Positions 26,737 to 45,367 of a DNA stretch of 64,000 nt are shown here, one piece after another (within the stretch, counting starts at the first letter, position 1; every line of letters begins with the position of its first letter). The position numbers and the translations under genes were made by a program. The notes beneath the pieces are model-generated. The model worked only from the letters and a program-made list of their open reading frames with translations, did not search any database and was not told where the DNA came from. The DNA comes from an uncultured Siphonobacter sp. (GTDB lineage: Bacteria > Bacteroidota > Bacteroidia > Cytophagales > Spirosomataceae). The stretch is from assembly GCA_913775095.1 (NCBI GenBank), contig CAJYIW010000018.1:124001-188000 (forward strand). Direction: 5' to 3'.

Positions 26737-26750
26737 TAGTTGAGTTTTGT

Positions 26751-26836
26751 GTTTAGAGTTCAGAGTTTTGTGTTTGGGGTTTAGAGTTATTCAGTACCAG
26801 TCATAACTCACTAACTCTAAACCCTAAACTCCAAAC
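26751..26836. repeat. Low-complexity G/T-arm : A/C-arm intergenic hairpin (argD / carbamoyltransferase spacer)
   Basis: The spacer consists of degenerate GTTTAGAGTT-type units on the left arm and their complements on the right. The core GGGTTTAGAGTTA (26777-26789) pairs exactly with TAACTCTAAACCC (26812-26824), and weaker pairing extends outward to 26836, just 4 bp from the argD stop. It is one of five such elements. Confidence 0.8.
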
Positions 26837-26839
26837 TTG

Positions 26840-27970
26840 CTACGCTGTTACCGCGATTACCTGCTCTAACGCTTCCAGGAAGCGGTCGCTTTCGGTCTGA
26901 CCGATGGCCAGACTGGGTAATAAACGTAAGGTATGTTTGCCCGCGTAACCGCAGAAAATTTTATGATCGAATAATAAGGTATCGCGAATCTTGTCGACGG
27001 GCTGTTCAAACTCAATACCAATCATGAGCCCGCGACCACGAAGTTCCTTGATCCCGCTGATGCCTTTGAGTTGCTCAAACAGATAATCCCCCTGCTTGGC
27101 GGCATTTTCGATCAGGTTCTCATTTTTCATAATATCCAGAACCGCTACTGCCGCTGCACAGGCCAGATGGTTTCCACCAAACGTCGTTCCTAACAGGCCG
27201 AATTTTGCATGGAACTTGGGAGAAATCAGAACGCTGCCAATTGGGAAACCGTTACCCATGCCTTTGGCCGTCGTAATCAGGTCGGGTTCAACGCCCGTGA
27301 ACTGGTGCGAGAAAAACTTACCACTGCGACCGTATCCACACTGAACGGAATCCAGAATTAATACCGAGCCAAACTGATCGCAAAGCTGACGAGCCGCCTG
27401 AAGGAATTCAGCCGAAGTCACTTTGATCCCTCCTACGCCCTGAATGCCTTCCACGATTACCGCACAGATTTCTTCGCTCATGGCCGCTTTCAAAGCGTCT
27501 ACGTCGTTGAAAGGAATGAAGGTAACGTGTGAGTTATCATTGATGGGAGCAACAATAGAGGGGTTGTCCGTAACGGCTACCGCCGCTGACGTACGTCCGT
27601 GGAAAGCTCCTTTAAAGGCAATTACTTTTTTACGTCCGTTATGAAAAGACGCCAGTTTCAGGGCGTTTTCATTGGCTTCGGCTCCTGAGTTAACCAGAAA
27701 AACGGAGTAATCGGAATACCCTGAAAGCTCCCCTAGTTTCTGACCCAGTTCTTTTTGAATGGGAATCTGAACCGAGTTTGAATAGAACCCGATTTGTGAA
27801 AGCTGACGCGTAATTGCTTCCACGTAATAAGGATGGGAATGGCCCACGGAAATAACCGCGTGACCACCGTATAAGTCCAGGTATTGATCGCCTTTCTTAT
27901 CCCAGAGGTAACTCCCCTGAGCTTTCACAGGCTCAATATCATAGAGCGGATAGACGTTGAATGGATTCAT
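26840..27970 (-). CDS. argD: N-acylornithine aminotransferase
   Basis: 376 residues, class III PLP aminotransferase. It converts N-acylglutamate semialdehyde to N-acylornithine with glutamate as amino donor. NSGAEANENALKLA, AFHGRT and ITTAKGMGNGFPIGS with the Schiff-base lysine K236 are visible. The usual D-E-V/I-Q motif at the pyridine-nitrogen site reads D208-S-V-Q (ILDSVQCGYGRSG), keeping the Asp but replacing Glu with Ser. Hairpin elements flank the gene on both sides. Confidence 0.95.
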   Translation of the reverse strand: MNPFNVYPLYDIEPVKAQGSYLWDKKGDQYLDLYGGHAVISVGHSHPYYVEAITRQLSQIGFYSNSVQIPIQKELGQKLGELSGYSDYSVFLVNSGAEANENALKLASFHNGRKKVIAFKGAFHGRTSAAVAVTDNPSIVAPINDNSHVTFIPFNDVDALKAAMSEEICAVIVEGIQGVGGIKVTSAEFLQAARQLCDQFGSVLILDSVQCGYGRSGKFFSHQFTGVEPDLITTAKGMGNGFPIGSVLISPKFHAKFGLLGTTFGGNHLACAAAVAVLDIMKNENLIENAAKQGDYLFEQLKGISGIKELRGRGLMIGIEFEQPVDKIRDTLLFDHKIFCGYAGKHTLRLLPSLAIGQTESDRFLEALEQVIAVTA

Positions 27971-27993
27971 TGAATGCTATGTTTGGGGGTTGA

Positions 27994-28081
27994 TCGGGTT
28001 TGAGAGTTGATTTAGTTTGAGCGGTTTGAAAAGTTTGAGTTCCTTGAATCTTCCTCAAACTAAATCAAACGCTCAAACCGA
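27994..28081. repeat. Low-complexity G/T-arm : A/C-arm intergenic hairpin (argC / argD spacer)
   Basis: Built of TTTGAG/TTTGAT units. GATTTAGTTTGAG (28009-28021) pairs exactly with CTCAAACTAAATC (28054-28066), and the stem extends imperfectly to about 27994 and 28081. The unit sequence differs from the neighbouring spacers although the architecture is the same. Confidence 0.82.
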
Positions 28082-28115
28082 ATCAAACTTTATTGAACCT
28101 GATCAAACGCTTCAT

Positions 28116-29072
28116 TTAAAAACCGACTGACTTCAGATTCAGACCGGTTTTCTCGTCCAGTCCGAATAATAAGTTCATGTTCTGAACCGCCTGACCGGAA
28201 GCTCCTTTCGTGAGGTTATCGATAATACTGGTGATCAACAGATTACCTTCTGCCACTTCCAGATGCACAATGCCTTTATTGGTATTTACCACCTGCTTCA
28301 CATCAATGCTGGCCTCACTTACGTGCGTGAAGGGATGCGGGGCATAATAGGATCGGTAAAGCTCCCTGGCGTCTTCCAGCGTTCCGGCGTAAGGTGTGTA
28401 CACGTTAGCCATAATGCCCCGCGTGAAGTTACCCCGGTAGGGAATGAAGTTAATGGCCTGTGAAAAATCCGGTTGACCTTTTCGCAGTACCATTCCGATT
28501 TCGGTCAGGTGCTGGTGATTAAAAGCCTTATAAATGCTGATGTTGTTATTCCGCCAGCTAAAATGGCTCGTGGCACTCAGCGATTGCCCCGCCCCGGTGC
28601 TACCCGTCACGGCCGAAATATGAACATCATTCGTTAATAAACCCGACTGAGCGAGGGGTAATAAAGCCAGCTCAATGCTCGTAGCGAAACATCCAGGATT
28701 AGCAATTTTCTGAGCCTGACGGATGGCATCTCGCTGTAATTCAGGCAATCCATATACGAACCCATTGGACTCATCCCGAAAATCCGTACTCAAATCAATG
28801 ACTTTCAGATTTTCAAAAGCCGGATTGGCCGCCAGAAATTTCCTGGATTCGCCGTGTCCGGAACACAGGAAAACCACGTCTATATCCGTATGAAATTCCT
28901 CTGAAAAGGTAAGGTCCGTATCTCCGAATAAGTCTGTGTGCGTCGAAGCGACGGGTTTGCCCGCCTGACTCTTCGAGTGAGCATACACGATTTCTGCTTC
29001 GGGGTGATGGATTAAAATACGAAGCAACTCACCACCCGTGTAGCCCGCCGCTCCAATGATACCAACTTTCAT
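28116..29072 (-). CDS. argC: N-acyl-gamma-glutamyl-phosphate reductase
   Basis: 318 residues. It reduces N-acylglutamyl phosphate to the semialdehyde with NADPH. GIIGAAGYTGGELLRIL is the Rossmann loop and ANPGCFATS holds the active-site C128. HxxHLTEI (NHQHLTEIG) is the conserved basic region. It lies third in the transcribed run after the GNAT and argG. It carries hairpin spacers on both sides. Confidence 0.96.
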   Translation of the reverse strand: MKVGIIGAAGYTGGELLRILIHHPEAEIVYAHSKSQAGKPVASTHTDLFGDTDLTFSEEFHTDIDVVFLCSGHGESRKFLAANPAFENLKVIDLSTDFRDESNGFVYGLPELQRDAIRQAQKIANPGCFATSIELALLPLAQSGLLTNDVHISAVTGSTGAGQSLSATSHFSWRNNNISIYKAFNHQHLTEIGMVLRKGQPDFSQAINFIPYRGNFTRGIMANVYTPYAGTLEDARELYRSYYAPHPFTHVSEASIDVKQVVNTNKGIVHLEVAEGNLLITSIIDNLTKGASGQAVQNMNLLFGLDEKTGLNLKSVGF

Positions 29073-29079
29073 TGTATTG

Positions 29080-29150
29080 TTGTTGGTTGTTGGTTGTCAG
29101 TTATTAGTAGTTAGAACAATTCCCATCAACTAACAACCAGCAACCAACAA
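29080..29150. repeat. Low-complexity G/T-arm : A/C-arm intergenic hairpin (argG / argC spacer)
   Basis: Arm 29080-29100 (TTGTTGGTTG units) pairs with 29130-29150 at 19 of 21 positions. The element nearly fills the spacer: 7 bp from the argC start and 6 bp from the argG stop. Confidence 0.85.
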
Positions 29151-29156
29151 CTCATT

Positions 29157-30356
29157 TTAGTCGTTCAACTCAGTGATTTTACGGTGAATCATGGTCTGAT
29201 TCGAAGCAATTTTCGAGAAGCCGCGAACGTCATCTCCCGACCAGGCATTGTTCATTTCACCGTAGCTGCCGAAGACATTACTCATCAGATCAAACGGCGA
29301 GTGAATACCCGTTACAAAGAAACGGTAGGGCTGTAACTGCACCTGTACCTGACCCGTTACGTGTTGCTGCGTGCTTTCGAGGAACGTCTCCACATCCCGC
29401 ATGGCGGGCTCCAGGAACTGACCTTTGTGCAACAGGCTACCGTACTGACCCGACAGTTGTTCCTTGAAGAAAATCTGCTGTTCGGTTAATACGTGTTTTT
29501 CGAGTAAGTGGTGAGCTTTAATAATGATCAGCGGAGCGGCGGCTTCAAAACCTACCCGTCCTTTAATCCCAATGATGGTATCCCCCACGTGAATGTCACG
29601 ACCTACGGCAAACGGAGCCGCTACGTCCTGTAATTTACGGATCGCGTCCACGGGGTTTTCGAAGCTTTCGCCATTTACCCCTTTCAGTTCACCGGCCACG
29701 AAATCAAGCGTTACGGTTTCTGTATCCTGACGCTGTAATTGCGTAGGCCAGGCTTCTTCGGGTAAAAATCCATCGGAGGTTAAGGTTTCTTTCCCGCCTA
29801 CTGACGTACCCCATAACCCTTTGTTGATGGAATACGTAGTCTTGGTCCAGTCACGAACCACGCCTTTGCCTTTCAGGTATTCAATTTCTGCTTCCCGGCT
29901 CAGACGTAAGTCACGAATCGGAGTAATGATTTCTACTTCAGGAACCACAATCCGGAACACCATATCGAAACGAACCTGATCGTTACCCGCACCCGTACTG
30001 CCGTGAGCGACGGCCGTTGCTCCAATTTGTTTGGCATACTCCGCTACGGCCAGGGCCTGAAATACCCGTTCGGCACTTACCGACAGCGGATACGTATTGT
30101 TTTTCAGTACGTTTCCAAAAACGAGATACTTCAGACAGTTTTCGTAGTAGTCATTCACGACGTCAAGCGTGGCGTGGCTGGCTACCCCCAATTCATAGGC
30201 ATTGCGTTCTACCTGCTGTAAATCCGCCTGGGTAAATCCGCCAGTATCCACTAATACGGAATGAACTTCATAGCCCTGATCGTCCGACAGGTATTTCACA
30301 CAAAAAGAGGTGTCAAGACCACCACTGTACGCCAATACAACTTTGGGTTTACTCAT
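29157..30356 (-). CDS. argG: Argininosuccinate synthase
   Basis: 399 residues from the ATG at 30354-30356 (MSKPKVVLAYSGGLDTS). The longer frame to 30434 adds a non-family extension. AYSGGLDTSFC is the ATP pyrophosphatase loop, AHGSTGAGNDQVRFD the substrate loop. It joins citrulline and aspartate. In this pathway citrulline comes from deacylation of N-acylcitrulline. argH, the next step, is not in the window. Confidence 0.96.
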   Translation of the reverse strand: MSKPKVVLAYSGGLDTSFCVKYLSDDQGYEVHSVLVDTGGFTQADLQQVERNAYELGVASHATLDVVNDYYENCLKYLVFGNVLKNNTYPLSVSAERVFQALAVAEYAKQIGATAVAHGSTGAGNDQVRFDMVFRIVVPEVEIITPIRDLRLSREAEIEYLKGKGVVRDWTKTTYSINKGLWGTSVGGKETLTSDGFLPEEAWPTQLQRQDTETVTLDFVAGELKGVNGESFENPVDAIRKLQDVAAPFAVGRDIHVGDTIIGIKGRVGFEAAAPLIIIKAHHLLEKHVLTEQQIFFKEQLSGQYGSLLHKGQFLEPAMRDVETFLESTQQHVTGQVQVQLQPYRFFVTGIHSPFDLMSNVFGSYGEMNNAWSGDDVRGFSKIASNQTMIHRKITELND

Positions 30357-30539
30357 GGAATTTGGTTGAGTGCGGATTCGGAAATGCGGTTTCTGGAGGT
30401 TATGCCTATAATTTCCGGTCCTGGTTATGTTCAATCAATAAATACTTATAAAAAAGCGGGAAGGAATCGCTCCCACCCGCCAAAATTATACGAAAACGTA
30501 TAACCATTAACTATGCAACAGTTAACGATTCGTGAATAA

Positions 30540-31208
30540 CTAATGAACGGGTTCTTCGATTTCTTCTTTTTCGTGATGCCTTAATAAAAGCCGTTGCTTG
30601 ATTTTGTTCCAACGCTCATAAATCTTGGCGTTTTTCAGGAAATTCCACTTCGGCTTTTTTTCCTTTTCCTTCTCCCAGGAAGGATCAAACATCATTCCCG
30701 TGCAAAGGCAATGCTTCCGACCCGTACGGCTCAGAACATCAAAGTTTACGCAGGAAGAACAGCCTTTCCAGAAGGCATCATCCACGGGCAACTCACTAAA
30801 CGTGGTAGGCTTATACCCCAGTTCGGAGTTAATTTTCATCACCGCCAGACTCGTGGTAATACCAATAATCCGGGCGTTGGGATATTTATGACGGGAAAGT
30901 TCAAAAGCTTTTTCCTTGATCATCTTGGCCAGACCACTTTTACGATGATCCGGATGGACAATCAGACCCGAGTTGGCCACGAATTTACCGTGATCCCAGG
31001 TTTCGATGTAACAAAAGCCCACCCATTCTCCTCGACGAGTCATCGCAACAATGGCTTTTCCTTCTTCCATTTTACGACGGAGGTATTCAGGCGAGCGTTT
31101 GGCAATGCCTGTGCCGCGTTGCTTGGCACTTTCTTCCATGTGCCAGCAAATCTCTTCGGCAAGGTACAGATGCTCTTTCGAGGCAATCTGGACTTTATAT
31201 TCGTTCAT
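30540..31208 (-). CDS. GNAT-family protein, candidate N-acylglutamate synthase
   Basis: 222 residues from the ATG at 31206-31208 (MNEYKVQIAS). The acyl-CoA motif HPDHRKSGLAKMI lies near residues 85-97. A distinctive C-terminal tail has GCSSC (C150, C153) and HCLC (C167, C169), which could bind a metal, followed by a basic region. It heads the arginine run, where the pathway needs a first enzyme and no classical argA or argJ is present. A Bacteroides GNAT in the same genomic place has been linked by fitness data to N-acylglutamate synthesis (from memory). Acetyl versus succinyl donor is not decided. Confidence 0.75.
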   Translation of the reverse strand: MNEYKVQIASKEHLYLAEEICWHMEESAKQRGTGIAKRSPEYLRRKMEEGKAIVAMTRRGEWVGFCYIETWDHGKFVANSGLIVHPDHRKSGLAKMIKEKAFELSRHKYPNARIIGITTSLAVMKINSELGYKPTTFSELPVDDAFWKGCSSCVNFDVLSRTGRKHCLCTGMMFDPSWEKEKEKKPKWNFLKNAKIYERWNKIKQRLLLRHHEKEEIEEPVH

Positions 31209-31586
31209 TTGATTACTTAAAACAGGAACTTGTGTTGAATGAAAGTACACTGGCTCATGGTCAGGTAGCCTTGCTTAACGACTCATACAACCCTAAAAGG
31301 AAGAAAATAGTGTGCCGGAATGGCCAGAAATCACAGGCGTACCGGCCTCCGTCGTTCAGGCCTGAAGAGCGGCCTACGCGGGGGCAGGATACTAAAGAAA
31401 GGCTCGATAATGGCCCGTGAATTCATTTTCTTTTGGAGATATTTTTGAAAACGACGCAAAGTTTAGAAAAACGAAAGCGTTCTTGCAAACATTGCACGTT
31501 TTTTTTCTTTACATTAGTTTTACTTGTCAGACGCTGAGGTCTTGTATCTATATAAACGACCCTGGTGAATTTTTTGTTCCGAATTT
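31209..31586. promoter_or_regulatory. Divergent region between the arginine run and aat
   Basis: A possible minus-strand promoter AAACTTTGCG lies near 31452-31461, giving a leader of about 240 nt for the arg run. The leader would contain a nested structure: GCGTACCGGCC (31337-31347) with GGCCTACGC (31371-31379), enclosing the perfect palindrome TTCAGGCCTGAA (31355-31366). The 31490-31586 part is T-rich and probably carries the aat promoter. No gene is supported. Confidence 0.4.
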
Positions 31587-32231
31587 ATGACTAATCTTAC
31601 AGCAGACGATCTGCTCTATGGCTATATGAGTGGGATTTTTCCCATGGCGGATTCGGATGGTACCCTGTACTGGTACTCTCCCGAACCCCGGGCCATCATT
31701 CCCATTGATACCTATAAACCAGCCAAATCCTTACGCCCCATCCTGAATAAGAACACGTTTGAGATTCGTATCAATCATGACTTTGAGGGAGTCATGCGGG
31801 GCTGTGCCCGCATCCGGGTGGGTGAAGACAGCACCTGGATTTCCGAAGAAATTATTACGGCTTACACGGAGTTATTTGAAATGGGATATGCTCATTCCGT
31901 AGAAGCTTACGTGAACAACACCCTGGCCGGAGGTCTGTATGGCGTGGCCATTGGCGGGGCCTTTTATGGGGAATCTATGTTCTATAATATCCCCAATGCG
32001 TCCAAAGTGGCGTTTCATTATTTAATCGAAAGGTTACGGGAACGTCAGTATTACCTGCTCGATACGCAGTTCATCAACGATAATGTGAAACGCTACGGGG
32101 CGATTGAAATTCCAAGGGCCGAATACATGTTCCGACTACGGATTGCCCTTCAGCAACGGTGCCAGTTTGCGGATACCTCCCCCCATCCACTGCCTTATCC
32201 TTTTCCTGCTATTATTAAGCACAAGAGCTAG
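31587..32231 (+). CDS. aat: Leucyl/phenylalanyl-tRNA-protein transferase
   Basis: 214 residues. It adds Leu or Phe from aminoacyl-tRNA to proteins with N-terminal Arg or Lys, marking them for ClpS/ClpAP degradation. YGYMSGIFPMADSDG, YWYSPEPRAIIP, HSVEAYVNN, GVAIGGAFYGESMF and LLDTQFIND are family motifs. It is a single gene, divergent from the arginine run; it is followed by a cluster of CCAGC hairpins. Confidence 0.96.
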   Translation: MTNLTADDLLYGYMSGIFPMADSDGTLYWYSPEPRAIIPIDTYKPAKSLRPILNKNTFEIRINHDFEGVMRGCARIRVGEDSTWISEEIITAYTELFEMGYAHSVEAYVNNTLAGGLYGVAIGGAFYGESMFYNIPNASKVAFHYLIERLRERQYYLLDTQFINDNVKRYGAIEIPRAEYMFRLRIALQQRCQFADTSPHPLPYPFPAIIKHKS

Positions 32232-32237
32232 CGTAAA

Positions 32238-32438
32238 CCAGCTTTTTCGCTGGCAGCCCTTCCTCAATCCAGCAATTCAATAACAATGAAAAGCCAGCGG
32301 CAATAAAAAGCTACCAGCAAAAAAGCTGGTAGCACGTATTAAACAACAAAAATGCCGCTGGTAGCCTAAGACCTGAGCGAAAATCCCTTTCAATAAAAAA
32401 GCTGCCAGCGGAAAAGCTCGCTGGACCACACTGGCAGC
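32238..32438. repeat. Cluster of CCAGC/GCTGG hairpins at a convergent junction
   Basis: About 200 bp holds several inverted CCAGC-containing units. GCTACCAGC (32310-32318) pairs with GCTGGTAGC (32325-32333) around six A. GCCAGCGGCA (32292-32301) can pair with TGCCGCTGG (32353-32361). GCTGCCAG (32401-32408) pairs with CTGGCAGC (32431-32438), with CCAGCG/CGCTGG nested inside. They probably terminate aat and the GIN gene, but more copies are present than one terminator needs. Confidence 0.75.
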
Positions 32439-32457
32439 ATGCATTTGAATTCCTGAA

Positions 32458-33159
32458 TTAATTCCGTCGGTTCACATCACTGCCACCCGATTTCCGACCC
32501 CCTACTTCTTTGGCATTCCCGGAATAGTTGATATCGCTGCCTCCGCTGGCTTCTGCTGTAATCTCATCTTCTGCGTACACATGAGCATCGGAACCTCCCG
32601 AAGCTTTTACCCGCACGATGCCCGCTCTAAATCCGGAAGCCTTGATATCTGAACCTCCACTGGCTACGGCATCAAACACGCCAGCACTACCTTTCAGATA
32701 CGCATCCGAACCCCCTCCCGCAGTTAATACCAGATGTTCGGCTTTCAGTTCAACTTTTGCGTCAGAGCCACCGCCCAAATCCATGGTCAGATTTTTGACG
32801 TTCCACTGGTTCTGGGAATAAATATCAGAACCGCCGCCAGCTCTGAGTTTTTCCAGCGTTTTAAAAGAAATATAAGCTTTCGCCGAACGCCCGGCTCCCC
32901 AATTGCCGAAAGGTCCGTTTCGATCAATTTTCAGAATGAGTGTACCGTCCCTGATTTCAGTAATTACTTCTTTTTCTTCGTATCCTTTTACTTCCAGTTT
33001 CAGCGAGTTGCTGTTACCCTGAGTCAGATACACGTCAATGCCGCTATTGGCCTGAATTGCGGTAAAATTCCCTACCGAGCGAGCCTGTTGCCAGTTTTGG
33101 GCCTGAGCAGCGAGCGATAGAGTGATGATTCCGGAAAGGGTTAATAAGGTTGATTTCAT
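32458..33159 (-). CDS. Exported GIN-domain (DUF2807) protein with GGSD repeats
   Basis: 233 residues with a signal peptide ending near AAQAQ. The head GIN domain pattern (FTAIQANSGIDVYLTQG) is followed by a C-terminal series of at least six (S/G)GGSD(A/I/V) repeats spaced about 17-20 residues apart, suggesting a beta-helix with a ring of Gly-Ser-Asp turns. Aspartates at regular spacing could bind cations. It is likely periplasmic or surface exposed. The function of DUF2807 proteins is not established. Confidence 0.9.
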   Translation of the reverse strand: MKSTLLTLSGIITLSLAAQAQNWQQARSVGNFTAIQANSGIDVYLTQGNSNSLKLEVKGYEEKEVITEIRDGTLILKIDRNGPFGNWGAGRSAKAYISFKTLEKLRAGGGSDIYSQNQWNVKNLTMDLGGGSDAKVELKAEHLVLTAGGGSDAYLKGSAGVFDAVASGGSDIKASGFRAGIVRVKASGGSDAHVYAEDEITAEASGGSDINYSGNAKEVGGRKSGGSDVNRRN

Positions 33160-33252
33160 GATGGTAAAGACAGTTATGGTTGGCAGTCACGAATGTCATG
33201 GTACGATACAGATGGATTACCGCGGCAAGACGTTGCACGGAAGAAATAAATA

Positions 33253-33276
33253 GCCCCCACTACAGGTAGTGAGGGC
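33253..33276. terminator. Hairpin in the Hint / GIN gene spacer
   Basis: GCCCCCACTA (33253-33262) pairs with TAGTGAGGGC (33267-33276) with one mismatch. No strong T-run follows in either direction, so terminator activity is uncertain. It lies between two codirectional minus-strand genes. Confidence 0.45.
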
Positions 33277-33441
33277 ATGTTCGAGTTTTGGTTAAAAGAA
33301 AGCCGCAATAACTTAAAAGAGAGTAGTTCTGGCAGTAATCTTACTTGACTTTTAAGTTTCGGGAAGGGGTAAAATCCTTACTGAGTTCTTCCCGAAATTT
33401 AATTTATGAAACTAGTTTGGATGGACAAAATCAGCAATGAA

Positions 33442-34398
33442 TTACTTGGCCATTACGACCGTCCCGTTCACCAGGTATGTAGCTTTGTCGGTGTTCAGGT
33501 TATACACTTTACTGACCGAACGAGCCGCAGACTGCGTTGTAAAGACGTCGTATTTTTTTAGTGTATTCGTTTCGGAATCCCGGTAATACATGACATCTCC
33601 TACTCGCACCTCACTCATGGGTTTCACGCCACTTTCCGTTAAAACGGGATGGTTAGCGGTGGCTTCCAGCGTAACGCTTTCCCAGCCGGGCTTTGCAGAG
33701 GCAGTTACCTTGGAGCCTGCTTCCACCAGCGTTACTCGGGTTAAATCAAACCTTTGATCGTCGTGAACCGTCAGCCCTGCTACGGTTGCGATTTCTGAAA
33801 CCTGGGTTAATGCCTGATAGCTCTGAATCTGATCTCCGGCGGCTATTTCCGAAATGATTCGGGTCGTGCCATCCGCCAAGGTTACCAGAGCATCAGCGGG
33901 AAAGCAATATTCGATTTTCTCGCCTTCCTCAGCGGCTGCCGGAGCTCCGCCAACGCCCGATTTGGTCAATACAAAGGCCATACAGGAAGACATTCCTTTC
34001 ATGGCTTCTTCACCGTACTTTAACTCGTCGATGTATTTGCCCCAAACGTCACCGGGAGCGTCTGGACTGGGCAGAGGAAACTGTCGAAGTTTGCCATCCT
34101 TGGGCGTTGTATAGATGGCATACATCCCCAGTTCGGCCATTTTCTCGGTTTCAAACAACTTGTATAGATAGACCCGACGTTCCGTACCATCTGAAAACTT
34201 GAATACAAAAGGATCTCCTATGCGATCCAGAATGAAATTTCCGGCCTTTACGTAACTATCTTTATCCAGATTTTTTACGGCAATTTTCTTGGCCGCATCA
34301 AATTCAGCGGAAGTGATGGGACGTTTTTCAGAATCTTGAGCCCAACTGTTCAGTGAAACCAAAGCAGCGACTCCCAGTGTCAGGAAAATTTTCTTCAT
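33442..34398 (-). CDS. Exported protein with C-terminal Hint (hedgehog/intein-like) domain
   Basis: 318 residues with a signal peptide ending near NSWA. Residues 22-160 form an unrecognised domain. From C165 the sequence follows the Hint pattern: CFPADALVTLADGT (block A with catalytic Cys), ATANHPVL (block B, H250), GDVMYYRD, then VYNLNTDKATYLVNG (block F) at the very C-terminus. There is no extein after block F and no terminal His-Asn block G. This matches bacterial stand-alone Hint proteins that may self-process. The product and target are unknown. Confidence 0.82.
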   Translation of the reverse strand: MKKIFLTLGVAALVSLNSWAQDSEKRPITSAEFDAAKKIAVKNLDKDSYVKAGNFILDRIGDPFVFKFSDGTERRVYLYKLFETEKMAELGMYAIYTTPKDGKLRQFPLPSPDAPGDVWGKYIDELKYGEEAMKGMSSCMAFVLTKSGVGGAPAAAEEGEKIEYCFPADALVTLADGTTRIISEIAAGDQIQSYQALTQVSEIATVAGLTVHDDQRFDLTRVTLVEAGSKVTASAKPGWESVTLEATANHPVLTESGVKPMSEVRVGDVMYYRDSETNTLKKYDVFTTQSAARSVSKVYNLNTDKATYLVNGTVVMAK

Positions 34399-34477
34399 AA
34401 AACTACGGTTGCAGAGTTAGTTAGTAGGTCATGTATCCGTTACTCCTTAGTAAATCAGAAGAGTAATGCTCAATCGG

Positions 34478-36031: not shown

Positions 36032-36070
36032 ATGGGGAAAGAAAGCAAATGGTTAGAGCATTCCGATAAA

Positions 36071-36147: not shown

Positions 36148-36163
36148 TATCCAGCCAACCGGA

Positions 36164-37714: not shown

Positions 37715-38746
37715 ATGAAGCCTATCCTTGTTATTAAATTCGGCACAGCCAGCATTACCAAAGCCAATGGAGAGATCAATGAAGCAACGATTCTTGAAAT
37801 TGCCCGGCAGGCTGCTCAGTTACATGATCAGTACCGCATTGTTCTCGTATCATCGGGGGCCGTCGGGGCTGGTAAAGCTTATCTGAAAGAATACCGCGGC
37901 GAACTAACGCAACGCAAAGCCGCCGCTGCTATTGGCAATCCCCTCCTGTTAGGTTTGTACGCCAAGTACTTTGGTGCCTTCGGAATTCCGGTGGCTCAGA
38001 ACCTGTGCGAGCGTAGTCACTTCGCCAATCGACCGCAGTTTCTGCAATTGAAAGAAACCTACGAAACGCTTTGGGAAAACGGCGTCATTCCGATTGCCAA
38101 CGAAAATGATGTGGTATCAGATCTGGAGCTGAAGTTTTCTGATAACGATGAACTGGCCACCCTGCTGGCCGCTGGCCTGGGAGCTGATACGTTATTATTC
38201 AGTACGTCCGTTGGCGGATTGCTGGATAAAGAACATAGCATCGTCCCTCGGGTCGATCGGATTGATGAAAATATTCTTGGTATGGCTGATACTTCCAAGT
38301 CAGCCGTGGGTTTGGGTGGAATGGTTTCGAAGTTAAGCTTCGCCAAGCGAGCCGTTCGGATGGGCATCCGGGTTGTCATCTTCGGAATTCATACACCGGA
38401 AGGCATTTTAAATGCCCTGAAAGAAGAAACCGGAACCGTGTTCACACCCGACAAAGTTTCACTGAAAGCCCGTCAGAAATGGCTCGGAACGGCCAGTCTG
38501 GTTACGGGCCAGTTAAAAGTGGACGATGGAGCCGTGAAAGCTTTATTGTCCCGACGCAGCTTACTGGCCGTGGGCATTGCAGAAGTCATGGGAGAATTCG
38601 ACCGGGGCGAGGTCATTGAAATCACGGATGAAGACGGCCAGATTATTGCCGTAGCCAAAGCCCGTGAATCTTCGATTACCGTTTCACAAAATCTGAAAAC
38701 CCAAAACTTCGCCGTTGCTCACGCCGACGATATTGTCTTATTGTAG
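37715..38746 (+). CDS. proB: Glutamate 5-kinase
   Basis: 343 residues: kinase domain to about residue 250 (VIKFGTASITKANG, VLVSSGAVGAGKAYL, NENDVVSDLELKFSDND, GLGGMVSKL) and a PUA-like C-terminal domain. It makes gamma-glutamyl phosphate, the first step to proline. The promoter box ends 7 bases before the ATG, so the message may begin at or next to the start codon. proA follows after a 103-bp spacer filled by a hairpin element. Confidence 0.96.
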   Translation: MKPILVIKFGTASITKANGEINEATILEIARQAAQLHDQYRIVLVSSGAVGAGKAYLKEYRGELTQRKAAAAIGNPLLLGLYAKYFGAFGIPVAQNLCERSHFANRPQFLQLKETYETLWENGVIPIANENDVVSDLELKFSDNDELATLLAAGLGADTLLFSTSVGGLLDKEHSIVPRVDRIDENILGMADTSKSAVGLGGMVSKLSFAKRAVRMGIRVVIFGIHTPEGILNALKEETGTVFTPDKVSLKARQKWLGTASLVTGQLKVDDGAVKALLSRRSLLAVGIAEVMGEFDRGEVIEITDEDGQIIAVAKARESSITVSQNLKTQNFAVAHADDIVLL

Positions 38747-38832
38747 TTTTCCGTTTGCTGTTTACAGTTTTTAATTGAGCTAGCTTCGGGTGTACTCATT
38801 CGTACAAAACTGTAAACCGTAAACTGAAAACT
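38745..38832. repeat. Low-complexity G/T-arm : A/C-arm intergenic hairpin (proB / proA spacer)
   Basis: Arm 38745-38771 (AGTTTTC/GTTTAC units) pairs with 38806-38832 at 24 of 27 positions. It begins at the proB stop codon and ends 17 bp before proA. It is the only plus-strand operon member of the five-element set. Confidence 0.85.
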
Positions 38833-38849
38833 GAAAACTCATCCATCCC

Positions 38850-40109
38850 ATGCAGGAAACCTTGAGTATTCTTCCCCAACTCGAAGCTACCCACGCCGCA
38901 GCTCCGGCGGTTCGGCGACTGAGCGATGCACAAAAAGCAGCCATTCTGAATCGACTGGCGGACCTGTTGCAGGAAAGCTCGGCCCAGATTCAGACTGAAA
39001 ATCAGAAAGACCTCGAGCGAATGCCACAAAGTGATCCTAAATGGGATCGCTTGTTATTAAACGCTGAACGGATTCAGGGCTTAGCTCAGAGTGTTCGGGA
39101 CATTGCTCAGTTACCCGATCCCAGCGGGCAAATGCTGCTGGAACGGGAGTTACCCAATGGCTTGCAGCTGAAAAAAATAGCGGTGCCTCTGGGTGTGGTG
39201 GGAGTTATCTACGAATCACGGCCCAATGTCACAATTGATGTCACGGCCCTTTGCCTGCGGTCGGGCAACGCGGTGGTCTTACGCGGCGGCAGTGACGCCT
39301 GGTTTACCAATCAGTACCTCGTTTCGCTCATCCATCAGGTATTGACCGAGTTCGGCGTTCCTTCCGCCGTGATCACGCTTCTGCCTACGAACCGCGAATT
39401 GATGAAAGAGCTGTTAACCGCTACGCGTTACGTGGACATCATCATTCCCCGGGGTTCCAGTGCCCTGATTCAGTTTGTCCGGCAACATTCCCTGATTCCA
39501 ACCATCGAAACCGGAGCGGGCGTTGTTCATACCTACGTTCAGGAAGAAGCCGATCTGGAAAAGGCCCGTGACATTGTAGTGAATGCCCGGGTGTCCCGAC
39601 CTTCGGTCTGTAACTCGCTCGATTGCATTCTGGTCGATCAGGGCGTCGCATCTGCGTTCCTGCCCATGCTTTGTGCGGATTTTGAACAGTGGAATGTGGA
39701 AGTGTACGCAGATTCTGCCGCGTATTACGTGCTTGAAAAAACGGGTTATCCCTTCTTACGCCACGCTCAAACCGAAGATTTCGGAAAAGAATGGCTGGAT
39801 TATAAAATCACTATTAAAGTAGTAACCGGACTCGACGAAGCTCTGGAACACATCCGGACGTATTCTTCCCGGCATTCGGAAGCCATTGTTTCTGAGAACG
39901 CACAGGTATGTCAGCGTTTTCTGGAAGAAGTGGACGCGGCAGCCGTTTACGCCAATGCCTCGACTCGTTTTACGGATGGTGGTGAATTTGGCCTAGGGGC
40001 CGAAATTGGCATCAGCACGCAGAAATTACACGCTCGCGGGCCTTTTGCTCTGGAAAAACTGCTTACCGAGAAATGGGTTATCCAGGGGAACGGGCAGGTT
40101 CGCTGGTAA
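38850..40109 (+). CDS. proA: Gamma-glutamyl phosphate reductase
   Basis: 419 residues. It reduces gamma-glutamyl phosphate to glutamate semialdehyde with NADPH in proline synthesis. PLGVVGVIYESRPNVTIDV, CLRSGNAVVLRGGSDA and VSRPSVCNSLDCILVD (active-site Cys) identify the family; FGLGAEIGISTQKLHARGP is near the C-terminus. It is cotranscribed with proB and closed by a 20-bp terminator. Confidence 0.97.
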   Translation: MQETLSILPQLEATHAAAPAVRRLSDAQKAAILNRLADLLQESSAQIQTENQKDLERMPQSDPKWDRLLLNAERIQGLAQSVRDIAQLPDPSGQMLLERELPNGLQLKKIAVPLGVVGVIYESRPNVTIDVTALCLRSGNAVVLRGGSDAWFTNQYLVSLIHQVLTEFGVPSAVITLLPTNRELMKELLTATRYVDIIIPRGSSALIQFVRQHSLIPTIETGAGVVHTYVQEEADLEKARDIVVNARVSRPSVCNSLDCILVDQGVASAFLPMLCADFEQWNVEVYADSAAYYVLEKTGYPFLRHAQTEDFGKEWLDYKITIKVVTGLDEALEHIRTYSSRHSEAIVSENAQVCQRFLEEVDAAAVYANASTRFTDGGEFGLGAEIGISTQKLHARGPFALEKLLTEKWVIQGNGQVRW

Positions 40110-40130
40110 TCTTCTTATCTGAAAATATTC

Positions 40131-40176
40131 ATTAAAAAGGGAGGGCTGGTGTTGCTACCAGCCCTCCCTTTTTAAT
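40131..40176. terminator. Bidirectional terminator with 20-bp perfect stem
   Basis: 40131-40150 pairs exactly with 40157-40176 around GTTGCT (core GGGAGGGCTGGT). It lies between convergent proA and the iron permease-like gene. Confidence 0.93.
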
Positions 40177-40213
40177 GAAATAACGCTTCTGATTTCATCC
40201 TCCACATTTGCCA

Positions 40214-40711
40214 TTAGATCGCTTCGGGGGTGGCTCCCTCTTCTTCCTGGAGCTTATCTTTCGCGTCTTTATAAGCCTCCTCAATAGAGTGTGATTTTCG
40301 TAAATCGCTGGCCTTGCGGGTTAGTTCGGCCAACGTTTCGTAGTGCCGGCAAAGCACATCCAGCTCATCCTGATCCAGTGTCTCTACGCCTACCAGTCGG
40401 TTACTGGCTCCTTTGGTAGCCGCAATTAACTCGTTCAGTTTTAACTGAATCGAAACGGAATCCTTATTCTGAGCTTTCTGAATGACGAATACCATTAAGA
40501 AGGTGATGATCGTGGTTCCGGTGTTGATCACCAGCTGCCAGGTTTCGGAGTAATGAAAAAAGGGACCGGAAATGGCCCAGACCAGTACCACCGCCAGAGC
40601 CGTCAGAAATGCCGCCGGACTTCCGGTGGCCCGGGTGACCCAGGATGAAAAACTTTCAAAAAGTTTGTGTTTAGGGGGCGTACTTGCGTCAGAATGAGGG
40701 GTGTTTTTCAT
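40214..40711 (-). CDS. Low-affinity iron permease family membrane protein
   Basis: 165 residues with two hydrophobic segments (about 35-55 and 60-80) and a cytoplasmic helical tail. SSWVTRATGSPAAFL and FHYSETWQLVINTGTTIITFLMVF match the small bacterial proteins of the low-affinity iron permease (Fet4-like half) family. The name comes from homology to yeast Fet4; iron transport by the bacterial half-size forms is not established. It has terminators on both sides and is probably monocistronic. Confidence 0.88.
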   Translation of the reverse strand: MKNTPHSDASTPPKHKLFESFSSWVTRATGSPAAFLTALAVVLVWAISGPFFHYSETWQLVINTGTTIITFLMVFVIQKAQNKDSVSIQLKLNELIAATKGASNRLVGVETLDQDELDVLCRHYETLAELTRKASDLRKSHSIEEAYKDAKDKLQEEEGATPEAI

Positions 40712-40768
40712 AATTGTTTAGGTAAAGTTCTTGCCCTATACTTTCTAAAAAACTATTCTCAATTCCAT

Positions 40769-40806
40769 AAAAAAGGCCTCACTTGAGCAAGTAAGGCCTT
40801 TTTTTA
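40769..40806 (-). terminator. Intrinsic terminator downstream of the CBS-ACT gene
   Basis: Stem AAAAAAGGCCT-ACTT (40769-40784, one bulge mismatch) with AAGT-AGGCCTTTTTT (from 40789), A/T runs on both sides. Confidence 0.88.
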
Positions 40807-40819
40807 AGCAAAAGTTAAT

Positions 40820-41485
40820 CTACATATTCAGATAACGAAGCAGTAAGTCCAGTCGTTCCTGATCAGTGGTATCCAGAGCTTCCGCCGTAAAAACGGATTC
40901 AATGATGTAATTGTAACGCTCGAACGTAGCGATAACCGCCTTGATGTTCCGACGGTTTAGCTTCAGGGTTAACCGCCCGGGCTGATTATTTTCGTAATTA
41001 CCCGTATTGAAATAACTGCTGATAATCTTCACATCGTTCGATTCTACCAGACGACTCACTTCGCTCATCGAGTAGTCCCGGTCGTCCATCTGGAGGACCA
41101 GTATGGCTCCTTCTTCCTGCGTCCCTAAATCCGTGGCAAAACGCTTCAGCAGCTCATTTACGGAGATACTCCCCACAAAAGTCTGATCTTCATCCACTAC
41201 GGGCAGCACATCCAGCTGATACAACTGCGTCGTTCGCAGAAGATCATACACGTGCTGATAGGGCTGCACCGAAACCGTGGGGTGTTCGGGCTGTACTTCC
41301 GTTAGAAAATCTTCCTCGTCAGCATTCATCAGACGCTCTTCTGAAAGAATTCCGGCGTAGCGTTCCTCTTCAGCCAGGACTAACTGAGTCATTCGAAATT
41401 CCTGCATCCAGTCCAGAGCCTTCCCAACGGTATCCGTGGGTCGCAACGTGGGTAATAAGGGGTCAATCAATTCTTCAGCGAGCAT
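40820..41485 (-). CDS. CBS-domain protein with C-terminal ACT-like domain
   Basis: 221 residues. Two CBS motifs (about 10-60 and 75-130, the second with YQLDVLPVVDEDQTFVGSIS) are followed by an ACT-like ferredoxin fold (ILVLQMDDRDYSMSEVSRLVES). CBS pairs sense adenosyl ligands and ACT domains often sense amino acids. It lies 91 bp downstream of an alpha/beta hydrolase on the same strand. The regulated target is not visible. Confidence 0.88.
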   Translation of the reverse strand: MLAEELIDPLLPTLRPTDTVGKALDWMQEFRMTQLVLAEEERYAGILSEERLMNADEEDFLTEVQPEHPTVSVQPYQHVYDLLRTTQLYQLDVLPVVDEDQTFVGSISVNELLKRFATDLGTQEEGAILVLQMDDRDYSMSEVSRLVESNDVKIISSYFNTGNYENNQPGRLTLKLNRRNIKAVIATFERYNYIIESVFTAEALDTTDQERLDLLLRYLNM

Positions 41486-41576
41486 AAGGCTATGGGTTAT
41501 ATGAATGCTTGTCCGGTTTTCTCGATAGTACCTTTTGTTAAAGTAAGACAGAATGTTGAAATACGCAAAAGACAGG

Positions 41577-42356
41577 TTAATTTTCGATCAGAGCCTCCTG
41601 AGTGGTTCTTTTCAGGAATTTAGCCAGAATGACATTGAATTCATCCGCGTGTTCCATCATTGGAGCATGACAGCATTTATCAATAAAAAAGAGTTCCGAA
41701 TTCGGAATAAGCCGATTAAATTCATGGGCCACCGCCGGAGGAGTAATCGTATCATTCAGTCCCCAGATCAACAGCGTAGGTACTTTGATCTGATCCAGAT
41801 CCTTGCCGACGTTGTTACGCTGAGCCGACTTGGCAATCTGAACGATGCTCATGCATTTCGGAATGCTGTTCGTGATTTCGAAGCATTCTTCAATCAGATC
41901 CGGGGTAGCGACGTTAGGATCGTAGAAAGTGTAAGATACCCGCTCGCGGATGTATTCGTAACTTCCCCGCTTGGGATAACTACCTCCCATGGCGTTTTCA
42001 AACAACCCAGAACTACCCGTCAATACCAGACGTTTTACATTCGATGGATTTTTAATCGTATACAATAACGCAATGTGGCCCCCTAAAGAGTTCCCTACCA
42101 GGGTCAGGTCCGTCAGATTACGATCAATGACAAATTTTTCAACGAACGCGGTTAAGCCTTCGACCCCTGCTTCGCGGGGAGGCATTTCATAGACTGGCAT
42201 CAGGGGAATAATCACCCGATACTGGTCTCTGAACGTATTAATGACCGAATCCCAATTCGAAAGGGCTCCGAATAAGCCATGAAGCATCATGACAATTTCG
42301 CCCTGTCCTTCGTCAATGAATTGGTAGCCGTCTTCTTGTTTAATTGAATAGTTCAT
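41577..42356 (-). CDS. Alpha/beta hydrolase
   Basis: 259 residues from the ATG at 42354-42356 (MNYSIKQEDG); a longer frame to 42395 adds a non-conserved extension. The fold shows MLHGLFGALSNWDSV (oxyanion region), nucleophile elbow GNSLGGH, then LLIWGLNDTITPP (acid) and DKCCHAPMMEH (His). It resembles esterases or haloperoxidase-like hydrolases. The substrate is unknown. Confidence 0.9.
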   Translation of the reverse strand: MNYSIKQEDGYQFIDEGQGEIVMMLHGLFGALSNWDSVINTFRDQYRVIIPLMPVYEMPPREAGVEGLTAFVEKFVIDRNLTDLTLVGNSLGGHIALLYTIKNPSNVKRLVLTGSSGLFENAMGGSYPKRGSYEYIRERVSYTFYDPNVATPDLIEECFEITNSIPKCMSIVQIAKSAQRNNVGKDLDQIKVPTLLIWGLNDTITPPAVAHEFNRLIPNSELFFIDKCCHAPMMEHADEFNVILAKFLKRTTQEALIEN

Positions 42357-42532
42357 TTCACGGATTAAGACAATCGTTGAAGCAAAATAAAGCATTTTTT
42401 CTTTGAAAGGTTCAAAAAAGAGATGCTCCTTTTTTTGATAAAGTGATGAAAATAGATAATTCTTAAGTGAAAGACAACATCTTTGAATCGTAGATTTGTT
42501 AGATTTTTGAAGAAAATACTTCAGTATTCTTT

Positions 42533-43894
42533 ATGCAACTTCCTGATTCCCTGCTTCAATCCTTACAGAACGAAAGCAGTTTTCATAAAGACGAGTTCCG
42601 GCTGGCTCACGAGCAGCCGGCTCCCGTTTCCATCAGATTAAATCCTTTTAAGGTTATTCCTCCACCGGCCGGATCGACACCAGTTCCGTGGTCGGAATAC
42701 GGATATTACCTGCCCGAGCGTCCCGTTTTCACGCTGGACCCGCTCTTTCATGCCGGCACCTATTACGTTCAGGAAGCCAGTTCGATGTTTCTGGAAACCT
42801 TTTTCAAACAGGTGGCTCCCGAAGGGCCTTTGCGGGTGCTGGACCTGTGTGCCGCCCCCGGAGGCAAGAGCACCTTACTTTCCAGTCTGCTGGATGAAGA
42901 CTCCCTGCTGGTGTCTAATGAAGTCATTCGTGCACGTTCGGGGGTGTTGGTTGACAACCTGACGAAATGGGGACGCCTCAATTCATTCGTAACCAATAAC
43001 GATCCCCGCGACTTTCAGCGGTTACCCGGCTTTTTTGATGTTCTGGTGGTTGATGCCCCCTGTTCGGGTTCGGGCTTGTTTCGGAAAGACAGTGAAGCCA
43101 TTCAGGAGTGGTCGGAAGAAAATGTGGCTCTCTGCTCGCAGCGTCAGCAACGAATTCTGGCGGATGCCTGGCCCTGCCTGAAGGAAGGTGGCGTACTGAT
43201 TTACTCCACCTGCTCTTATTCCCGCTCCGAGAACGAAGACATTCTGGACTGGTTTTCGGAATCGTTCGGTTGCACGTCGCTCTCCCTTTCAGAGGTGCCC
43301 GATGGCATTGTAGAGGTTTGCACGGAAGATAAAAATTACGGCTATCGCTTCTGGCCCGATCAGGTGAAGGGCGAGGGTTTCTTCATTGCCGCTTTTCAGA
43401 AAACCGAAGATCAGGACGAGCTTCAGTTTCGGATGAATTACTCCGGAAAAGGCAAAACCAGAAAACAGGAATCCGCCATTTTTGGCGACTGGATTGACCA
43501 CATTCAGTCGTATGAATGGGTAGAGAAAAACGGTGATTTCTTTTTGTTAAATCCCGATCATCGCGTCGATTTCGAGATCATCAGTCAGCAGTTATACCTT
43601 CGTAAAGCGGGCATTCGACTGGGCAAACTGGCCGGTAAAGACCTCATCCCGGATCATGAGCTGGCCCTGAGTACGCTGGTTTCCGAAAAGTCCGTCCCCC
43701 GACTGGAACTAAACCGGGAAAATGCGTTGCGTTACCTGAAACGCGAAGACTTTGATTACAAGTCTTCAAAAAAAGGCTGGCATCTGGTTACTTACCAGGG
43801 GCATTCGCTGGGCTGGGTGAAGGTATTACCCAATCGGGTGAATAATTACCTTCCCAAAGACTGGCGGATTCTGATGGATATTCGGGAGAATTAA
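42533..43894 (+). CDS. RNA (cytosine-5) methyltransferase, RsmF/NOL1-NOP2-sun family
   Basis: 453 residues. SAM-site VLDLCAAPGGKST (about 103-114), DAPCSGSGLFR with C177 and IYSTCSYSRSENED with nucleophile C227 give both cysteines of m5C methyltransferases. The C-terminal third is a PUA-like RsmF extension. It probably methylates 16S rRNA. The last codons lie inside a 20-bp perfect hairpin that spans the stop codon. Confidence 0.92.
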   Translation: MQLPDSLLQSLQNESSFHKDEFRLAHEQPAPVSIRLNPFKVIPPPAGSTPVPWSEYGYYLPERPVFTLDPLFHAGTYYVQEASSMFLETFFKQVAPEGPLRVLDLCAAPGGKSTLLSSLLDEDSLLVSNEVIRARSGVLVDNLTKWGRLNSFVTNNDPRDFQRLPGFFDVLVVDAPCSGSGLFRKDSEAIQEWSEENVALCSQRQQRILADAWPCLKEGGVLIYSTCSYSRSENEDILDWFSESFGCTSLSLSEVPDGIVEVCTEDKNYGYRFWPDQVKGEGFFIAAFQKTEDQDELQFRMNYSGKGKTRKQESAIFGDWIDHIQSYEWVEKNGDFFLLNPDHRVDFEIISQQLYLRKAGIRLGKLAGKDLIPDHELALSTLVSEKSVPRLELNRENALRYLKREDFDYKSSKKGWHLVTYQGHSLGWVKVLPNRVNNYLPKDWRILMDIREN

Positions 43895-43919
43895 GAGCCC
43901 TTAATTCTCCCGAATATCC
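43876..43919. repeat. 20-bp perfect inverted repeat spanning a stop codon
   Basis: 43876-43895 pairs exactly with 43900-43919 around AGCC. The TAA stop of the methyltransferase gene (43892-43894) is inside the left arm. No T-run follows, unlike the other hairpins of this size. A second hairpin GGCTGGTG/CACCAGCC follows at 43944-43963. Confidence 0.88.
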
Positions 43920-44034
43920 CTTGGTGTCCATTTCTTTACCATCGGCTGGTGAAGACACCAGCCAAGGCAGGAGTATTTTCCAGCACATAAAGACCTGGAA
44001 TTACCCCAGACCCCATCAATGGACGTCTCTACGA

Positions 44035-44070
44035 AAAAGGCCGTCATCTGCGAACAGATGACGGCCTTTT
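44035..44070. terminator. Bidirectional intrinsic terminator
   Basis: A 16-bp perfect stem (44035-44050 with 44055-44070, core GGCCGTCATCTG), CGAA loop, followed by T-rich sequence; between convergent genes. Confidence 0.92.
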
Positions 44071-44086
44071 GATTTTTAATAATCCC

Positions 44087-45262
44087 TTATTTTTTACAGT
44101 ATAAAGCCAGATGACGGTATCGTAAGAACAGGGTAATATTCAGGAATAACAGGCCATACATTCCTTTCCAGAACAGAAACTGTAACATGGTTCCGGCGAT
44201 CACGAACACCATTGCTACGATGAAGTAATACATGAGCCATTTGGGACGGCGGGAAAGCATGATGAACGCAATGACATTAAATGGGCTGGTAATGAACATG
44301 CTGTAATTCCAGTCGGTAATGCCGTGATTGGTTCCAAACCATAACAGCGTATGGATTACGCCAAAAACGCCGGTAATGAAAAGCAGCGTTCGATCAAAGC
44401 TACCGCCGGGACGAATGTTCTTTCTTCTCAGGATCAGAATCAGTAAGGGCGAAGCCGCTATTATCCAGAAAAGGCTTTTCCACAGAAGGCTGGTTTCGAC
44501 GGGCGTTGCCTCGAAAATCCGGTTGGTTTGCAGAACCAGCTTCTGAGATTTCCCATCCGCACGCACGATTCTTCCCCGATCCAGCATCCGGAGTAAGTTA
44601 TTAGGAATGTACGCTGACTGATTCGGGGTCGTGATTCGGTCAATGGGGTAACCCAGGGCCAGGTTCAATCCCAGTCGTGACCAGTAACTTTCATGCAGGT
44701 AATCATTCATCCAGTCCCGGTACGACTTTCCGATCAGGAAGGTATCTTTTTCATCCAGACGAAGGCTGTCCCCGGCGGCTTCAAAGACTTTGTCGCGTGG
44801 ACGCGTCGAGCAGTTATCGTAATAAGGTCGATACTGATACGTCTTGTTTTCGGGACGGGCGTTCGTTTCCATCAGGTCGAAAAGACGCTGCTTTTGCTGG
44901 GGCGAAAAATTAAGCACCTGTTCGGTTACGCTCCGGTTTTCACTTTTCCAGTATTCCAGCAAGCTATACTGAGGATCCGGGTAATCCAGGGGAGACGTTG
45001 TCAGCTGATAAGGCAGGTTGCCCCGCAGGAAATTCCAGTAAAAGCCGGAGGCCCGGAAATCAAACGTACCGTAATTGTACACTTTGTCGATCCCCAACCC
45101 CGGATCATAAATCCAGATGGCCGTATGCCCGAAAAAGGTATAAATCTCGTCGCCTGGCCCGACGGTAATCAGACTCACCTTCGCCATCGGACTCAACTGC
45201 TGAGCCCCCGACCAAAGCGGAAATGCCAATAAAAAGAAAAGTATAAATCGACGAAAATTCAT
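44087..45262 (-). CDS. DUF4105-domain membrane protein
   Basis: 391 residues: signal peptide, then a DUF4105 domain (about 25-180) with VGPGDEIYTFFGHTAIWI and YDNCSTRPRDKV, then about five membrane segments. DUF4105 is related to Lnb-type periplasmic domains; the conserved His and the Asn-Cys-Ser region resemble a cysteine-peptidase-like (NlpC-fold) site, but activity is unproven. It is separated from rsmI by a low-complexity hairpin. Confidence 0.88.
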   Translation of the reverse strand: MNFRRFILFFLLAFPLWSGAQQLSPMAKVSLITVGPGDEIYTFFGHTAIWIYDPGLGIDKVYNYGTFDFRASGFYWNFLRGNLPYQLTTSPLDYPDPQYSLLEYWKSENRSVTEQVLNFSPQQKQRLFDLMETNARPENKTYQYRPYYDNCSTRPRDKVFEAAGDSLRLDEKDTFLIGKSYRDWMNDYLHESYWSRLGLNLALGYPIDRITTPNQSAYIPNNLLRMLDRGRIVRADGKSQKLVLQTNRIFEATPVETSLLWKSLFWIIAASPLLILILRRKNIRPGGSFDRTLLFITGVFGVIHTLLWFGTNHGITDWNYSMFITSPFNVIAFIMLSRRPKWLMYYFIVAMVFVIAGTMLQFLFWKGMYGLLFLNITLFLRYRHLALYCKK

Positions 45263-45363
45263 GTTTCGGGTTTGAAGTTTAGAGTTTCGGGTTCAGCGGC
45301 GGCGAGTATGCTATTGGGCAGACTAGCTCCAAACAGCTTAACTCAAAACGCTAAACCCGAAAC
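45263..45363. repeat. Low-complexity G/T-arm : A/C-arm intergenic hairpin (rsmI / DUF4105 spacer)
   Basis: GTTTCGGGTTT (45263-45273) pairs exactly with AAACCCGAAAC (45353-45363). Inner GAAGTTTAGAGTT pairs partly with the right arm. The loop is longer (about 50 nt) than in the other four. The element touches the start codon of one gene and lies 4 bp from the stop of the other. Confidence 0.72.
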
Positions 45364-45367
45364 GCTT

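Follow-up and report, generated by a model that had tools for sequence, protein, structure and literature searches.

Gene edges in the genome of an uncultured Siphonobacter sp. (G000; 5.65 Mb, 27 contigs) can carry arrays of degenerate heptamers of the form GTT-x-N-z-N, with the GTT strand facing away from the gene. In spacers that have an array at each edge, the two arrays nearly always belong to the same class; they are therefore imperfect inverted copies of each other, and the spacer RNA would fold into a stem. This analysis follows up a first-pass annotation of the window, i.e. the whole 64,000-nucleotide stretch G000:C18:124001-188000, in which five low-complexity hairpins had been noticed in operon spacers. 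Between two species of the genus, the positions of such elements are conserved while their letters are rewritten. A stem in the RNA at operon boundaries is, tentatively, the most likely role. Genes, starts and spacers were taken from our own gene-calling script, and order and edge counts for G000 refer to a sample of 2.108 of its 5.648 Mb. The term FR is used below for the arrangement in which an AAC array follows a GTT array within one spacer.

Heptamer arrays at gene edges

In a ranking of 64 anchors at periods 4-14 (plus strand, 1.264 Mb), the first two places went to GTT and AAC at period 7, with 94 spacer matches and 1 coding match for GTT and 79 and 0 for AAC, respectively. Spacer matches summed over the anchors amounted to 425 for period 7, 184 for period 14 and 43 for period 10, and to at most 12 for any other period. 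Runs of four consecutive GTT at period 7 were matched 102 times in co-directional, 44 times in convergent and 20 times in divergent spacers; coding sequence had 8 matches (1.264 Mb, both strands, overlapping matches included). In the 2.108-Mb sample, the order GTT-then-AAC was found in 59 spacers, and the reverse order, alone or together with it, in none; one reverse-order place occurs elsewhere in G000, on C24. FR was present in 47/876 co-directional, 9/229 convergent and 3/270 divergent spacers of at least 40 nt. The co-directional placement proposed by the first-pass annotation thus held, and the confinement to operon spacers did not.

The arrays are polar with respect to gene edges. Spacers of at least 80 nt contained 191 arrays; 118 of these were located no more than 20 nt from a gene edge, and in every one of the 118 the GTT strand pointed outward: 70 GTT arrays lay at the left edge and none at the right, and 48 AAC arrays lay at the right edge and none at the left. 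The stem begins a few nucleotides past the stop codon. In the 47 co-directional elements, the first GTT followed the stop at a median of 4 nt (within 10 nt in 39), and the last AAC preceded the called start at a median of 22 nt (within 15 nt in 21). Arrays beside divergent starts were rare, with 4 lying within 20 nt in 265 spacers.

The letters within the heptamers were compared in 36 paired elements comprising 342 units, the commonest of which were GTTTTGA, GTTTAGA and GTTTAGG. The modal base at position 6 was equal in both arms of 33/36 elements (permutation mean 0.50, p 0.0005), and in a second set the class at this position was the same in both arms of 45/47. The modal base at position 4 was equal in 32/36. 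Agreement between arms at position 5 was 0.44 against 0.44 in permutations and at position 7 was 0.61 against 0.50 (p 0.07), and homogeneity within elements at both positions was at the shuffled level. Where both arms agreed, 23 elements were of class G, 6 of class T and 4 of class C. The idea that class is a regional property was discarded because adjacent elements do not share it (match of neighbours 0.35-0.43 compared with 0.50 after shuffling).

The likeness of adjacent units in paired arms was 0.252 compared with 0.335 in permutations (0/1000 as low), and that of units two apart was 0.434 compared with 0.332 (0/1000 permutations reached this value). Adjacent heptamers were identical in 20/271 pairs of FR arms and in 45/163 pairs of other arrays. 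The loop-proximal unit had A at position 4 in 28/72 arms compared with 16/270 other units. Long, near-perfect single arrays also lie beside genes, namely C5:50414 (GTTGTTG-type, 15 units) and C19:15006 (GTTTGCA, 10 units), and are unlike the diverse paired arms.

In RNA folding, FR spacers had a median z of -5.1, and 72% of 36 were below -3, compared with 33% of 120 array-free spacers. Arms paired better with their own partners than with other arms taken at random (percentile 0.78, p 4e-8). Genome-wide, inverted repeats with a score of at least 14 occurred in 55/405 co-directional spacers compared with 0.0 expected (5 shuffles each), a count that includes classical terminators, which differ by composition; the elements are far above chance. 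The hairpins of G000 fall into two classes. One is the classical bidirectional terminator with an A-run, a G/C core, a short loop and a T-run, found in 136/168 array-free convergent spacers of up to 400 nt. The other is the low-complexity G/T-to-A/C hairpin, for which the lack of a strong T-run was confirmed, since 0/47 elements had at least 5 T in the 8 nt past the AAC arm. Canonical hairpins were found in 2/42 FR co-directional spacers compared with 120/667 array-free ones (p 0.03), as expected for a location inside operons.

Conserved positions and rewritten letters

Five further genomes of the genus (G001-G005) were available. G003, whose DNA is approximately 80% identical to that of G000 (9.5-kb test stretch), was compared over stretches of 400 and 80 kb from two contigs. 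Among 191 orthologous co-directional spacers, the 13 that carry FR in G000 contained FR (9), a GTT array (1) or an AAC array (3) in G003, and 4/174 array-free spacers of G000 had an array in G003. Because all 13 spacers keep arrays, most elements are old, having been rewritten in place or maintained and not grown anew. In the 18 spacers in which both species have arrays, class was kept in 14 and changed from G to C in 4. Spacer C19:633309 aligned without internal gaps (89 to 90 nt) although its class had changed, and C19:634295 had a 7-nt gap in each arm between the species.

Regardless of the partner's class, identity between G000 and G003 was 0.93-0.98 at positions 1-3, anchor values to be read with the alignment effect discussed below, and 0.64-0.77 at positions 4-7; array-free co-directional spacers had a mean identity of 0.81. 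In class-conserved orthologues, identity was 0.95-0.99 at positions 1-3, 0.80-0.84 at positions 4 and 6, 0.77-0.79 at position 7 and 0.66-0.69 at position 5. No element among 52 (up to 200 nt) had a near-identical copy at 90% identity over 80% of its length, and 3 had one at 80% over 80%. Of the proposal that the hairpins were grown rather than copied, the statement that they are not copies is thus upheld, and fresh independent growth of most elements is at odds with the retention of arrays in the same spacers.

The FR pattern, defined for the phylum scan as three GTT heptamers, 8-38 nt and three AAC heptamers, was found in 113/395 Bacteroidota genomes; G000 itself had 159 matches, overlapping ones included. 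In a subset of 148 genomes, it occurred at 550 places in 40 genomes (a hand sum in which overlapping registers are counted repeatedly), and the AAC-then-GTT pattern occurred at 34 places in 9 genomes, 30 of these places being in family f24. Genomes of f24, including G082 and G148, have a mixed order with many AAC-then-GTT hairpins of GAAC/GTTC units. A backwards-read control (the CAA-then-TTG form, which is not a clean null) had 0 matches in G000. In some genomes the control equalled or exceeded FR (35 vs 35 in G038, 12 vs 0 in G276 and 12 vs 4 in G168), which points to other heptamer phases there.

The five elements of the window

All five hairpins of the first-pass annotation were found, each in the gap between one gene's stop and the start of the next gene in the same direction. 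In each, the first arm is rich in G/T and the second in A/C. All of them folded better than every one of their 200 dinucleotide shuffles, with z from -4.7 to -8.3 (-4.82, -5.96, -8.26, -4.71 and -6.20 for elements 1-5). The shared architecture was confirmed; the units, which had been described as differing between elements, obey one period-7 GTT heptamer grammar in elements 1, 3, 4 and 5. None of 33 terminator-like sites lay within the five elements, and no Rfam match at gathering score was obtained for window positions 20000-50000. The genes neighbouring such elements are those of ordinary metabolism and housekeeping.

Element 1 (26744..26836) is located between the N-acetylornithine carbamoyltransferase gene and argD, and consists of seven GTT heptamers (26744-26792), a loop and four AAC heptamers (26809-26836) of class G (GTTTnGn). 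An FR hairpin with differing heptamers was present in this spacer in all 6 genomes of the genus; beyond element 1, the window spacers are patchy, and G001 lacks elements 2, 3 and 4. In G001, a long hairpin lies between argB and the carbamoyltransferase gene, a place occupied by different, shorter spacers in the other genomes. Element 2 (27990..28108, argD/argC spacer) is a long imperfect hairpin of a minor type, built of GTTTGA-based units at 8-10 nt spacing; it lies outside the heptamer grammar, and the heptamer detector is blind to it. It exemplifies a minor array type with a period of about 10 nt, in which GTTTGA is followed by 3-4 nt (window 27990-28108). The corresponding spacer bears a hairpin and measures 145-170 nt in G002-G005, and measures 12 nt in G001.

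Element 3 (29079..29151, argC/argG spacer) has four GTT heptamers, a loop and four AAC heptamers of class T (GTTGnTn). FR was present in its counterparts in G003, G004 and G005, a GTT array alone in G002 and neither in G001. A promoter-like match (10 of 12) on the minus strand at window 29071-29100 overlaps element 3 and is likely due to chance, the region having 10 such matches compared with 22.4 in shuffles. The closest named argC relatives in the genome collection are those of Dyadobacter psychrotolerans and Larkinella soli (72% identity), which places G000 in the Cytophagales, and the detector found no FR pair at 80 named argC loci (966 kb).

Element 4 (38746..38838, proB/proA spacer) has four GTT heptamers, a loop and five AAC heptamers of class C (GTTTnCn). 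Its counterpart was FR in G005 and an AAC array in G003, and the short spacers of G001, G002 and G004 had none. Growth from a seed was considered for this spacer because G002 and G004 share TTCCGTTTGCTG with G000 and have no hairpin; decay fits equally well, and the idea was dropped. Element 5 (45263..45363), between the genes for an RsmI-like methyltransferase and a Lnb-like acyltransferase, has five GTT heptamers, a loop and four AAC heptamers of class G. Among the relatives in which this spacer could be read (G002, G003 and G004), FR was present in G003 and absent from the 40-41 nt spacers of G002 and G004; it was unreadable in G001 and G005.

Palindromes of another kind, REP-like and of the form CAGC-AAAAA-GCTGG, were seen several per spacer at window 32232-32457 (convergent) and at G000:C18:156238 and 156315. 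The 2.108-Mb sample contained 18 matches to this pattern, of which 10 fell in co-directional spacers, 8 in convergent spacers and 0 in coding sequence.

Possible roles and comparison with known heptamer repeats

If the elements act as operon-boundary stems, the spacer would be transcribed within the operon, and the stem would close the untranslated gap and shield it from nucleases or Rho; it might also determine how the terminating ribosome is coupled to the start that follows. The arrays would grow and shrink by 7- or 14-nt steps, and selection or local copying would keep the GTT/AAC anchors and the class of both arms together. Several observations weigh against this reading. Hairpins and co-directional placement are what is seen, and cotranscription of the flanking genes is assumed. 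Single arrays with no detected partner are common in co-directional spacers (12 GTT-only and 31 AAC-only), and single-array spacers fold no better than array-free ones. Of seven convergent FR pairs, three bracket a canonical terminator; a compact hairpin is thus not obligatory for the arms. The conservation of the anchors is inflated because the alignment of two GTT arrays forces GTT on GTT. At the free positions, own arms barely surpassed arms of the same class (percentile 0.58, p 0.14; repeat 0.60, p 0.056). Pairing therefore stems mainly from the common grammar and class, and selection for pairing would be insufficient on its own to account for the pattern. The free positions likewise gave no support for the derivation of either arm from its partner by exact inverted copying, and register locking by alternation was unsupported because own arms pair no better at positions 5 and 7.

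This weak pairing is the reason for retaining another explanation, in which an RNA- or DNA-binding factor reads GTT-x-N-z-N and the hairpin follows from the mirrored edges. Positions 1-4 and 6 would be contacted and positions 5 and 7 would not, and the classes would be read by different factors or with different strengths. Constraint on the unit has three levels: positions 1-3 are universal, positions 4 and 6 are uniform per element, and positions 5 and 7 vary freely even inside a single arm. These levels and the grading of orthologue identity by position agree with such an array. On the other hand, positions 4 and 6 were chosen as the class by eye and could partly reflect pairing, and no factor is known. 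An RRM protein, considered as the partner of a binding platform, was rejected for this genome, since G000 has no RRM_1 match although 113/148 Bacteroidota genomes have one. We regard a binding array as unlikely, yet as a serious rival. The other serious rival, slightly more likely but still doubtful, is that the arrays are a mutational by-product, generated when the polymerase slips by 7 or 14 nt and by opposite-strand copying, and persisting where they do no harm, in untranslated sequence outside promoters, with the hairpin having no role. Heptamers are reported to be over-represented in many bacteria, and slippage has been proposed (PMC4679880 and PMC4692102); long single arrays do exist at C5:50414 and C19:15006; and if arrays harm promoters, their depletion beside divergent starts would be expected. 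Neither an edge polarity of 118 to 0 nor arrays in the same spacers of two species is predicted by a process that takes no account of genes; moreover, single 7-nt slippage predicts that neighbouring units are alike, the opposite of what was seen, and only copying in 14-nt steps would fit.

That the elements are terminators or attenuators lacking a strong T-run is very unlikely. They lie close behind stop codons and their stems are long, but the T-run is missing throughout, a separate canonical class serves convergent spacers, three of the seven convergent FR spacers carry a canonical terminator besides the arrays, and none of the 33 terminator-like sites lies in the five elements. A mobile or dispersed palindrome, such as a repetitive extragenic palindromic (REP) sequence or a miniature inverted-repeat transposable element (MITE), is extremely improbable. 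Dispersal, intergenic location, palindromy and patchy presence in the genus spacers (five of six genomes) recall such elements, but near-identical copies were not found among the 52, the same spacers are occupied in the sister species, and class and letters change in place. The Bacteroidota promoter motif (TTTG repeats) was set aside by reasoning, because classes T and C do not contain it and arrays are rare at divergent starts.

The heptamers may constitute a three-tier code that marks transcribed gene boundaries, although we consider this quite unlikely. GTT would be universal, and positions 4 and 6 would give a class common to both edges, which could switch in its entirety from one species to another. 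Positions 5 and 7 would be free and would alternate along the array. The code would be read by a factor or by RNA-RNA pairing between edges (perhaps in trans within a class) and would join adjacent operon genes, with the mirrored order also present in other Bacteroidota. Translation initiation in Bacteroidota depends little on Shine-Dalgarno sequences, and the pattern would help to explain how long untranslated gaps within operons are handled in this phylum. Since the pattern is present in 113/395 sampled genomes, a model organism may well carry it. Heptamers described earlier, in distant bacteria, were each noted as one exact motif with no function assigned, and the degenerate version found here shows a strict and testable rule: polarity at gene edges, mirrored order, a class common to both arms and a fixed position with changing letters.

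The first-pass annotation knew of no formal description of a function for such elements. Heptamer repeats that form hairpins or have the same edge polarity have been published for cyanobacteria and Xanthomonas, and no description of the mirrored degenerate form in Bacteroidota was found in the literature searched. The available part of a Flavobacterium transcriptome paper (PMC9723704) does not mention such repeats. Stem-loops at nif processing sites go with a longer transcript half-life, according to a citation and unpublished data in PMC4284476; the available text does not call them heptamer repeats.

REP sequences and bacterial interspersed mosaic elements (BIME) are palindromic and extragenic and often lie between operon genes. 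Unlike these and intrinsic terminators, the present elements have no common sequence, near-identical copies or T-run. TAACTGA direct repeats are known from Beggiatoaceae, some cyanobacteria and five Bacteroidetes, with 7-nt indels between close strains (PMC4679880, available part). They resemble the present arrays in being intergenic, AAC-phase heptamers just upstream of start codons, but consist of one exact unit in direct repeats with no folding of their own predicted, whereas many units and a mirrored partner are found here; GTTATCA, the GTT phase of TAACTGA, was not among the 40 commonest units. The GGGAATC and GGGGA(C/T)T heptamers of Xanthomonas and Nostoc are edge-polar and scarce between divergent genes and, when two species are compared, keep their neighbouring genes while changing in length and sequence (PMC4692102). 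The present arrays likewise have the GTT strand outward from the gene edge and are few beside divergent starts. They differ in their degenerate, G/T-rich units and in that one spacer often has an array at each edge, whereas those repeats have a fixed G-quadruplex-forming unit and form mostly single arrays; the present unit, GTTNNNN, has no G-tract of the quadruplex type.

The short tandemly repeated repetitive (STRR) sequences of cyanobacteria are usually 7-bp, intergenic and hairpin-capable and lie between operon genes, e.g. hupS/hupL; in the available text their authors suggest transcript stability or translational coupling, with no established function (PMC2670836). The present elements share the dominant 7-nt unit and the intergenic hairpin. 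They differ from the STRR tandem of one near-exact unit in the rarity of identical neighbouring heptamers in FR arms and in their degenerate units, which combine an invariant GTT with a position that defines the class. The mirrored arms of absolute order may be a further difference. The wider kind, heptamer repeats, is thus already published, and the mirrored degenerate form of Bacteroidota is a variant of it; the elements may be the Bacteroidota counterpart of the cyanobacterial operon heptamer hairpins.

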